Below, piece by piece: positions 2,060 through 42,906 of a stretch of DNA of 64,000 bases. The first letter of the stretch is position 1. Each line of letters starts with the position of its first letter. Location of the stretch: positions 372,001-436,000 of the forward strand of contig NZ_CP046122.1 of NCBI RefSeq assembly GCF_009707365.1. Direction: 5' to 3'. Made by a program: the position numbers and the translations under genes. Under the pieces are notes generated by a model. That model saw nothing but the letters and a program-made list of their open reading frames with translations. It ran no database searches and was not told the origin of the DNA. The stretch comes from Microlunatus sp. Gsoil 973. Lineage in GTDB: Bacteria > Actinomycetota > Actinomycetes > Propionibacteriales > Propionibacteriaceae.

Positions 2060-2061
2060 TC

Positions 2062-2105
2062 CGCCGAGGGGTCACATAATTCCTCATATTCGCGGTGTGT
2101 CGCGG
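2062..2105 (-). repeat. Palindromic-element repeat, copy A (direct copy of the left arm of the hairpin)
   Basis: This 44 bp segment begins three bases after the leuS stop and matches the left arm of the adjacent inverted repeat at an offset of 52 bp, with several substitutions. Read on the minus strand it encodes RHTANMRNYVTPRR, the same short peptide pattern as the other copies. Strand is given for that peptide orientation. No ribosome binding site or complete gene accompanies it. Confidence 0.75.
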
Positions 2106-2113
2106 TCGCAGCC

Positions 2114-2236
2114 CGCCGAGGGGTCACTAAATCCCTCATCCGCGCGGCGTGTCGGGCCTCCCATCCGGAACTTGGTCTCTGGATGGGAGGCACGACACGC
2201 CGCGCATATGAGGGATTATCTGACCCCTCGCCGGCT
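2114..2236. repeat. Long inverted repeat (copies B and C of the element), possible bidirectional terminator
   Basis: Two copies of the element face each other: arm B at 2117-2166 and arm C at 2181-2230. The arms are complementary at 44 of 50 positions and are separated by a 14-nt loop (2167-2180). The hairpin fills the gap between the convergent leuS and permease genes and reaches the permease stop codon. There is no T-tract, so it is not a textbook intrinsic terminator, although such a hairpin could stop or protect both transcripts. A further single copy lies inside tgt at 41584-41634, so this is a dispersed family and not a private terminator. Read in one frame, copy C encodes ARHAAHMRDYLTPRR. 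Confidence 0.85.
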
Positions 2237-39877: not shown

Positions 39878-41533
39878 ATGAGGACTGTGGCGACACGGAC
39901 CACGGATGTGCTGGTTGTCGGTGCCGGACCGACCGGCCTGATGGCGGCCCTGGTGCTGGCCCGCAACGGTGTGCAGGTCGAGATCGTCGACCCGAAACCG
40001 GGACCGACCCGGGAGTCCCGGGCGCTGGGCGTGCAGGCCAGGTCGATGGAGCTGTACGCCCAACTCGGTCTGGTCGATCAGGTGCTGGCCGGCTCGTACA
40101 CCGCGCCCGCCCTGCAGTTCGGCTGGCAGGACCGCGCCACCCGACGGATCGAGTTGACCGTCCTGCAGGACCAGGTCAGCGAGTATCCAGGGCTGCACGT
40201 CTTCGAGCAGAGCCGCAACGAGCAGTTGCTCGCCGACGCGCTGACCGAGCCGCTGGCCGACCAGGGCCGCACGGTGCGGTGGGGCGAACGGCTGGTGGAT
40301 CTTGTCACCTCAGGCGACAGCGTGCACGCGCTGACCGACGGATCGGGCGAGCTCACCCAGATCGAGGCCCGCTGGTGCATCGGTGCCGACGGCGCCGGGT
40401 CGATCGTCCGGCGGCTGCTGGACATTCCGTACGAGGGCGTCACCGACCCCGGCCGGTTCTGGGTCGCCGACGCGCGCGGCGTCAGCGGACTGCCCGACGG
40501 GGTGATCAACCTACGGTTCGGCAGCCAGGACCTGTTGTTGACCTTCCCGCTCGGCCCGGACGGTCACCAACGGCTGCTCGGCGTGGTGCAGAGCGGGGCC
40601 GACGGCGACCCGACGGCGCCGACGGTGCTTCCGCCGATCGCCGAACGGTACGGCTTCAGCTACCGCGAGGTGGACTGGTTCGCGCACTACCGGGTGCACC
40701 ACCGGACGGCCGAGCGCTTCCGCAAGGGCCGCGTCTTCCTTGCCGGTGACGCCGCCCATGTTCACTCGCCGGTCGGCGGGCAGGGGATGAACACCGGCCT
40801 GCAGGACGCTCACAATCTCGCCCTGGCCATCGTCGATGTGATCGCCGGACGAACCGCTCCGGAGGATCCCGATGGCGACGCCCGCCTGGACCGCTACCAG
40901 GCCGAACGGCAACCGGTTGCCCGGCATCTGGTCGCGCTGACCGACCGCGCGTTCGGCGTGGTGGCCAGTCGGCGGCGCGGCCGCGCGGTCGTCCGCCGGC
41001 AGATCGCGACCCGGTTCGTGCCGCTCGTCGCGACGGTCGTGCCACGGCTCCCGGTGGGGCACCGGCTCGGCGGTTATCTCGGCCAGACCAGGATCCGCTA
41101 CCCGATGTCGGACGCCGCCGATCCGGGCGACGGCCACCAGGACCATCCCGGAGACGACCAGAACCACAATCGCAATCACAAACACGATCACAATCACAAA
41201 CACAGTCGCCATGCCGCTGACGACCGCATCGTCGGGCGCAGGCTGCCGCCGTCCGGTTCCAATCACACGCTGCTGCGGGACTTCAGCTGGCAGCTGCACT
41301 GCTATGCCGGCGGTACGGCACCCGCCGACGACCGTGCCGCGCTCGGACTGCCGGACTGGGTGACCGGCCCGCACCGGCTGCCCGTGGATCCGGCTGCCGG
41401 GCTCGACCCGTCGCGCCTCTACCTGATCCGTCCGGACGGTTTCGTGGCCGCAACGGCCCCGCTCGACGACCCGGCGGTTCTGCAGGCCGCGTTGCGCTTC
41501 CACGGCCTCGCCTCTGGCACACTCGTGCGGTGA
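39878..41533 (+). CDS. FAD-dependent aromatic monooxygenase with His/Asn-rich insert
   Basis: Class A flavoprotein hydroxylase (PHBH/UbiH/rifampicin-monooxygenase group), 551 residues. The FAD motif VLVVGAGPTGLMAALVLARNG is at residue 11, the DG motif in CIGADGAGSIVRRLL (about residue 167), and the GD motif in VFLAGDAAHVHSPVGGQGMN (about residue 288). The C-terminal thioredoxin-like part ends in YLIRPDGFVAATAPL. Between residues about 415 and 450 lies a charged, low-complexity segment with about ten His and several Asn (NHNRNHKHDHNHKHSRH), absent from normal family members; it may bind metal or be slippage-grown. tgt starts inside its stop codon (GTGA). The substrate is unknown. Confidence 0.88.
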   Translation: MRTVATRTTDVLVVGAGPTGLMAALVLARNGVQVEIVDPKPGPTRESRALGVQARSMELYAQLGLVDQVLAGSYTAPALQFGWQDRATRRIELTVLQDQVSEYPGLHVFEQSRNEQLLADALTEPLADQGRTVRWGERLVDLVTSGDSVHALTDGSGELTQIEARWCIGADGAGSIVRRLLDIPYEGVTDPGRFWVADARGVSGLPDGVINLRFGSQDLLLTFPLGPDGHQRLLGVVQSGADGDPTAPTVLPPIAERYGFSYREVDWFAHYRVHHRTAERFRKGRVFLAGDAAHVHSPVGGQGMNTGLQDAHNLALAIVDVIAGRTAPEDPDGDARLDRYQAERQPVARHLVALTDRAFGVVASRRRGRAVVRRQIATRFVPLVATVVPRLPVGHRLGGYLGQTRIRYPMSDAADPGDGHQDHPGDDQNHNRNHKHDHNHKHSRHAADDRIVGRRLPPSGSNHTLLRDFSWQLHCYAGGTAPADDRAALGLPDWVTGPHRLPVDPAAGLDPSRLYLIRPDGFVAATAPLDDPAVLQAALRFHGLASGTLVR

Positions 41534-42906
41534 ACGCAATCGACCCAGCACTTGCCGGGGCCGCCGAACCCGGTGGGGCCACCACGCGCGGCACGACACG
41601 CGGGGCAGATGAGGGAATATCTGACCCCTCGGCGTTCGGGTTCGAGGTGGGGGCGCAGCTGGCCGGCGGGCGGGGCCGTACCGGAGTCATCCACACCCCG
41701 CACGGTGACATCGCGACACCGGCGTTCACTCCGGTCGGCACCAAGGCGACGATCAAGGGCGTGCTGCCCGAGACGATGGCCGAGTTGGGCGCGCAGGCAC
41801 TGCTGGCCAACGCCTATCACCTCTTCCTCCAACCCGGCGCTGACATCGTCGACGCGGCCGGCGGGTTGTCCCGCTTCATGAACTGGCCGGGACCTACGGT
41901 CACCGACAGCGGCGGTTTCCAGGTGATGAGCCTGGGCAGCGGTCACAAGAAGGTGATCTCGATGTCGCTGGCCGACAGCCGCCCCCAGGGCAGCGATGCT
42001 GCCGGTGGTGGCGCCCGGCCGCGGGAGATCTATTCCTCTTCCGGCAAATCCGGGCGACTGGTCGAGATCGACGACGACGGGGTCACCTTCACCTCCCACA
42101 TCGACGGCAGCCGGCGGCGGTTCACCCCGGAGATCTCCATGCAGATCCAGCACCAGCTGGGTGCCGACATCATCTTCTGTTTCGACGAGTTGACGACGTT
42201 GTCCGATCCGCGGCCCTACCAGGAACTCTCGCTGGCCCGCACCACCGCTTGGGCGCAACGCTGTCTCGACGAGCACCTCCGGCTCACCGAGGACCGGACC
42301 CATCGTCCCTACCAGGCGCTGTTCGGCGTCGTCCAGGGTGCCCACTACGAGGACCTCCGGCGCCGTGCGGTCCGCGAACTGGTCGCGCTCCGGGCCACCG
42401 AGGACCCCGGCCGCGGCTTCGACGGCTACGGCATCGGCGGTGCGCTGGAGAAGGAGAACCTCGGCACCATCGTCGGCTGGGTCTGCGACGAACTGCCTGA
42501 GGGCCGTCCGCGCCATCTGCTCGGCATCTCCGAACCCGACGACTTCTTCGCCGCCATCGAGAACGGTGCCGACACCTTCGACTGCGTGTCACCGGCCAGG
42601 GTCGCGCGGAACGCCGCGCTCTACAGCCGGCACGGACGCTTCAACGTCAACACGGCGGCCAACCGCCGCGATTTCCGGCCGGTCGACGAGGGCTGCGACT
42701 GCTACACCTGCACCCACTACACCCGCGCCTACCTGCACCACCTGTTCAAGGCCAGGGAGATCAATGCCAACACCCTGGCGACCATCCACAACGAGCGCTT
42801 CATCGTCCGACTGGTCGACGACATCCGGGACGCCATCGCCGGCGACTACTTCGGCGAGCTGAAGGCGGACTTCCTCGGCCGCTACTACGGCGCTCGGGGT
42901 GGTTAG
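41530..42906 (+). CDS. tgt: tRNA-guanine transglycosylase with a repeat-derived N-terminal segment
   Basis: Exchanges guanine for a deazaguanine base at tRNA position 34 in the queuosine route. 458 residues. DSGGFQVMSLGSGH holds the substrate Asp, FGVVQGAHYEDLRR and GYGIGGALEKENLG line the pocket, and the zinc site is CDCYTCTHYTRAYLHH. An actinobacterial insert at about residues 148-172 (PQGSDAAGG to SSSGKSG) is also present. The GTG start overlaps the monooxygenase stop by 4 nt. The first 34 residues are unusual because nt 41584-41634 are a copy of the palindromic element found after leuS. The element adds about 17 residues in frame without disturbing the conserved core from FEVGAQ onward. 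Confidence 0.93.
   Translation: MNAIDPALAGAAEPGGATTRGTTRGADEGISDPSAFGFEVGAQLAGGRGRTGVIHTPHGDIATPAFTPVGTKATIKGVLPETMAELGAQALLANAYHLFLQPGADIVDAAGGLSRFMNWPGPTVTDSGGFQVMSLGSGHKKVISMSLADSRPQGSDAAGGGARPREIYSSSGKSGRLVEIDDDGVTFTSHIDGSRRRFTPEISMQIQHQLGADIIFCFDELTTLSDPRPYQELSLARTTAWAQRCLDEHLRLTEDRTHRPYQALFGVVQGAHYEDLRRRAVRELVALRATEDPGRGFDGYGIGGALEKENLGTIVGWVCDELPEGRPRHLLGISEPDDFFAAIENGADTFDCVSPARVARNAALYSRHGRFNVNTAANRRDFRPVDEGCDCYTCTHYTRAYLHHLFKAREINANTLATIHNERFIVRLVDDIRDAIAGDYFGELKADFLGRYYGARGG
41584..41634 (+). repeat. Palindromic-element copy D, inside the tgt coding sequence
   Basis: A 51 bp copy in the same orientation as arm C after leuS, with most positions identical (for example GCACGACACGC, ATGAGGGA, TATCTGACCCCTCG). 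In tgt it is read in a different frame from the one that gives ARHAGQMREYLTPRR, so tgt gains the unrelated peptide TRGTTRGADEGISDPS. Confidence 0.85.

Follow-up and report, generated by a model that had tools for sequence, protein, structure and literature searches.

The 64,000-nt stretch of DNA analysed here (the window) comes from G000, a single-contig genome of 4.9 Mb from the same genus as Microlunatus endophyticus, and carries on its plus strand tgt, the gene for a tRNA guanosine(34) transglycosylase of 458 amino acids (41530..42906; TIGR00430, 406.7 bits against a cut-off of 306.75; PF01702), in a frame that is open from a GTG at 41530 to the stop at 42906. Codons 22-35 of tgt consist of an in-frame copy of a 42-nt repeat unit, TTRGADEGISDPSA (41593..41634, plus strand). 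An earlier note on this DNA had placed a copy of a palindromic element within the first 35 codons of the gene, at 41584-41634; the repeat indeed lies inside these limits, but it encodes 14 residues and not the approximately 17 that had been proposed. A 22-nt core of the tgt repeat is common to three further copies in the window at about 2061-2234, and these four core matches compare with an average of 0 across 100 shuffled sequences. All three are intergenic, at 2061..2102 (minus strand), 2113..2154 (minus) and 2193..2234 (plus), the last two being the left and right arms of an inverted pair.

The repeat family and its placement

We searched 57 genomes, G000 included, for the core with up to 3 mismatches, using the reversed pattern as a control; the genus set comprised 20 genomes. 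There were 83 matches in G000 (3 for the reversed control) and 42 in M. endophyticus (G012), and the remaining 55 of the 57 genomes had 0 to 5, near their own controls. A stricter 38-nt pattern occurred 73 times in G000, 21 times in G012 and 0 times in the other 18/20 genus genomes, with controls of 0. The 42-nt unit has the consensus CGACACGCCGCrnAnATGAGGGATTATGTGACCCCTCGGCGG, and in a column profile of 82 copies GACCCCTCG was invariant and CGACACGCCG strongly conserved. Five pairs of copies in G000 are spaced at 78 nt, and a constant tandem spacing of 52 nt was observed at G000 positions 374065/374117, 590546/590598, 2262525/2262577 and 2263889/2263941. The window gave no match in Rfam at gathering thresholds, and the repeat core had 0 exact matches in the viral contigs scanned.

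The palindrome within a single unit is imperfect. The consensus is predicted to fold at -12.3 and -14.2 kcal/mol, and RNAalifold, run on 77 copies, predicted only a weak structure (-2.8) for one strand and none for the other. Two individual units were folded, both modestly, with z scores of -2.2 and -3.0 for the tgt copy and -0.84 for the copy at 2061, and the inverted pair at 2113-2234 is predicted to form a single extended hairpin (-101 kcal/mol, z -14.9).

According to a basic, unbenchmarked gene caller that relies on codon usage, 57 of the 83 G000 copies lie between genes, 15 partly within coding sequences and 11 fully within them. Called gene ends are concentrated on the GGCGG side of the unit, where 34/51 lie within 13 nt of it in G000 and 18/21 in G012, against 4/43 and 2/22, respectively, on the other side. 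This mostly intergenic placement downstream of genes, together with the inverted dimers, fits elements like the repetitive extragenic palindromic (REP) sequences of other bacteria. Six called genes (L069, L076, L093, L094, L096 and L100) reach into the repeat at its GGCGG side and have their stop codon there, so that their last residues are supplied by the repeat.

The bias in gene ends and the very strong folding of the tested inverted pair also speak for an alternative, in which the intergenic copies are transcription terminators that selection maintains, and tgt and other genes like it acquired a copy through local duplication or rearrangement instead of transposition. We regard this explanation as unlikely. 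Only 10 of the 83 copies match repeat-bearing loci retrieved from G012 on both flanks, with 6 more matching on one, and an insertion in a methyltransferase gene, described below, adds precisely 42 nt and leaves the net length otherwise unchanged. That most G000 positions are unshared with the retrieved G012 loci suggests spread after the split of the two genomes, although some copies may instead have been lost from G012.

Probable translation of tgt through the repeat

We compared the Tgt N-terminus with those of 17 relatives; a match to Tgt was present in 18 further genomes, of which G025 was left out. The earlier note had raised the possibility that all relatives carry the segment; it was absent from 17/17 N-termini examined, and the relatives' match to Tgt resumes directly after the repeat, at F-x-F. 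In G012, the nearest relative for this comparison (NZ_BMMZ01000004.1), 2 codons precede AFGFE, against 34 in G000 in the same start context, so that G000 has 32 additional codons (96 nt). These comprise the repeat and the stretch that runs from after codon 2 to the repeat (41536..41592, plus strand), which are absent together from the G012 protein, with a junction that is ambiguous by one codon. The best match to this stretch elsewhere among the retrieved loci reached only E 0.06.

Several observations weigh against a simple insertion of the repeat into tgt. The repeat covers only 42 of the 96 extra nucleotides (13 or 14 codons, the last of which, GCG, is shared at the junction), leaving 18-19 of the 32 extra codons outside it; the length of the Tgt N-terminus differs among relatives in any case; and the empty site is not clean on the left of the repeat. 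The expectation that homologues lacking the segment would match on both sides of it was borne out on the right, and not cleanly on the left.

The GTG start of tgt overlaps the stop of the upstream gene (GTGA), an open frame at 39878..41533 (plus strand) with a flavin adenine dinucleotide-binding domain (PF01494; monooxygenase-like) that ends inside the tgt start. The same start codon is formed by the last bases of a 20-nt block, TCTGGCA(C/T)(A/C)CTCNTGCGGTG (41513..41532, plus strand), which G000 shares with three relatives (4/18 genomes examined), two of them with different DNA upstream of the block as judged by eye. The block may represent a leaderless promoter. Its weight as a marker of the start is reduced by its being missing from the other 14/18 genomes, where the best match has 5-7 mismatches.

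A different possibility is that the repeat belongs to an untranslated leader upstream of the true tgt start. A GTG is present at codon 40 (41647), and Di Nocera and colleagues warned that REPs annotated within N-terminal coding regions may for the most part be extragenic, owing to misannotation (PMC3733652). We nevertheless consider a leader very improbable. This GTG is the only ATG, GTG or TTG between codons 1 and 78, and a start there would remove F38, a residue that hardly varies among 28 aligned Tgt proteins, and cut the first strand (residues 37-43) of an AlphaFold2 model of Tgt; the GTG at 41530, in turn, has the overlap with the upstream stop and the shared block. A start near codon 35, which the earlier note had considered, is disfavoured because the sole alternative GTG, at codon 40, would lose F38. 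Translation from the GTG at 41530 is supported, although not proven, by these sequence comparisons, and the repeat is probably made as an extra stretch of 14 residues in the protein.

The added part of Tgt is most likely a flexible tail, since residues 1-29 of the model have a predicted local distance difference test score (pLDDT) below 50. This prediction is tempered by the modest quality of the model (mean 69), in which core stretches 71-88, 98-102, 118-130 and 135-176 are also of low confidence, and by the position of repeat residues 30-35 outside the low-pLDDT stretch.

The Tgt N-terminus of another genome, G004, holds a different repeated motif, CTTCGACAGGCTCAGG, apparently in frame (L113, 1994-2009, minus strand; three pattern matches in the locus), which suggests that this site accepts unrelated repeats. 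In G001 and G015 (L117 and L044), the Tgt core is preceded by long open stretches in which repeated CGCCCTGAG-like units are visible by eye.

In-frame copies in other genes

Further in-gene copies were assessed through homologue alignments with 8 relatives per gene. Domain labels of the repeat-bearing genes are from Pfam, with the MetE-like match slightly under its cut-off, and the names MenE, RimO, MetE and NrdA are presumptive. The insertion in a DUF7059/methyltransferase protein amounts to exactly 14 extra codons that are absent in 8/8 relatives. This clean case makes the reading of in-gene insertion a general one and, with the 17 relatives that lack the Tgt segment, supports the proposal of the earlier note that a palindromic repeat within a gene may be tolerated as extra peptide.

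A MenE-like AMP-binding enzyme has two copies, an internal one that is oppositely oriented and another at the C-terminus, both shared with G012 and absent in the other 7/8 relatives. Between G000 and G012, 9 codons of the internal copy are identical, 2 synonymous and 4 changed, and the corresponding numbers for the C-terminal copy are 5, 1 and 8, a pattern that does not point to strong constraint on the peptide. The 60 codons ahead of the C-terminal copy aligned out of register and were left out of this comparison. The repeat peptide is present in a longer N-terminus of a RimO-like protein and in a loosely aligned stretch of a MetE-like protein, and 8/8 relatives are without it in each case. 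Both are weaker examples of insertion, having extra codons beyond the unit and loose alignments.

Homologues thus back 5 of the 11 copies that lie fully within coding sequences (Tgt, the methyltransferase, the MetE-like protein and the MenE-like enzyme twice). The RimO-like copy falls outside these 11 as the caller's start lies after the repeat; the homologues suggest otherwise. A copy in the N-terminus of a ribonucleotide reductase (presumably NrdA, 942615) has Pfam support only. Five in-gene copies flagged by the caller (1700141, 1700204, 1862525, 2720348 and 2756530) were excluded from the count, and L228, a C-terminal copy found only in G012, was left out of the alignments. A selA copy was rejected as an N-terminal insertion, since the caller assigns it to an intergenic position and its counterpart in G012 is read in another frame, and the G012-only L209 and L219 were rejected as clean insertions, both lying in variable stretches.

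Copies within genes can be read as about 14 residues because the length of the unit is a multiple of 3 and it has stop-free frames; the frame used in tgt is free of stops on the tgt strand in 69/83 copies. Nine of 10 hand-picked in-gene cases from the two genomes use two frames, giving TTRRxxEGxSDPSA or PAEGSxNPxxxRRV, and other frames of the unit are open about as often as these two.

The tgt copy could also function in cis, for instance as a hairpin in the mRNA close to the start codon that modulates tgt translation, with the peptide being incidental. Its predicted RNA fold on the coding strand has a z score of -2.2 and is equalled by 7 of 200 shuffles. Copies in other genes, however, are found in the middle of the gene or at its C-terminal end and in either orientation, a poor fit with a single regulatory role, and we think a cis-acting function decidedly unlikely.

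We favour, with high confidence, the explanation that the repeat is a REP-like actinobacterial family that acts inside genes as the Rickettsia palindromic elements (RPEs) do, with the tgt copy as one case. On this view, a short REP-like repeat of 42 nt has increased in number in two related species within one genus, most copies lying between genes and many just past a stop codon, according to the simple gene caller. A minority lie inside genes, where they can be read as about 14 residues, and the tgt copy would add a tolerated segment ahead of the enzyme core. We infer in this scheme that the peptides are translated and neutral, and that spread depends on an enzyme acting in trans.

Spread of the repeat and its relation to known elements

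REPs of the GTAG- and CGTC-tagged classes are 20-40 bp in length, form inverted dimers, lie downstream of coding regions with some intragenic copies, and are targets of insertion sequences (IS), and no dedicated transposase is described for the CGTC class (Di Nocera et al. 2013; PMC3733652). The repeat described here resembles these REPs, as portrayed in that paper, in size scale, inverted dimers, placement downstream of coding regions, the presence of intragenic copies and IS targeting, and resembles the CGTC class in that no dedicated transposase was found (PMC3733652). It differs in having no evident GTAG or CGTC tag, its conserved end being CGACAC with poorly conserved bases outside (82 copies), and, from the GTAG class, in the lack of a REP-associated tyrosine transposase (RAYT; Y1_Tnp). 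The RAYT-type domain PF01797 was matched in 0/20 genus genomes and in 5/14 control genomes.

RPEs are short palindromic repeats that occur in frame in unrelated genes and are read as extra peptide (PMC10969869, PMC3733652). They share with the present repeat its many copies, its in-frame occurrence in unrelated genes and its absence from homologues; the first-reported RPEs are about 150 bp in the account of PMC10969869, against 42 nt here, they belong to another phylum, and the likeness drawn here is one of description. We have therefore not filed the repeat as a member of a named REP or RPE family, because it has no GTAG or CGTC tag, no RAYT, an imperfect single-unit palindrome and only this descriptive likeness to RPEs. 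In-gene palindromic repeats are described from Rickettsia and, as REPs, from further bacteria including Opitutus terrae and Thauera, with no mention of Actinobacteria in the relevant passages of these two sources (PMC10969869, PMC3733652); Actinobacteria are not among the phyla listed in the latter, and the word occurs 0 times in its main text (PMC3733652). A literature search covering titles and the starts of abstracts, with few subscription journals, found no paper on this repeat or on an RPE-like case in Actinobacteria.

Five repeats in G000 are interrupted by an IS110-family element of about 1.4 kb (L085, L087, L090, L098 and L102, near 2720530, 2893270, 3030079, 3608150 and 4292533), at one fixed repeat position in 5/5 copies among the loci retrieved. 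Two of these five insertions have both of their flanks matched by loci of G012. IS110/IS621 elements are reported to target REP sequences (PMC11208160), and the present insertions are alike in using a fixed repeat position, in a different repeat and host. Viral contigs contained no confirmed relative of the IS110 transposase. The repeat could be a selfish protein-coding palindrome of Actinobacteria that spreads free of RAYT, perhaps moved in trans by another recombinase, such as the IS110 enzyme that already recognises it, and persists within genes chiefly in a single frame on each strand, a scenario that we offer as a speculative one with a low chance of being right. The idea of one frame per strand is opposed by the use of another frame in 2/5 of the flagged G000 in-gene copies and by hydropathy, which fails to explain the preference, the other open frame on the same strand being more hydrophilic.

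The family is small and countable, with a sister species that has about half the copies, insertions that are shared and unshared between the two, and a transposon at the same repeat. This makes the G000/G012 pair a tractable system for studying the movement of such elements and the frequency with which they add segments to proteins.
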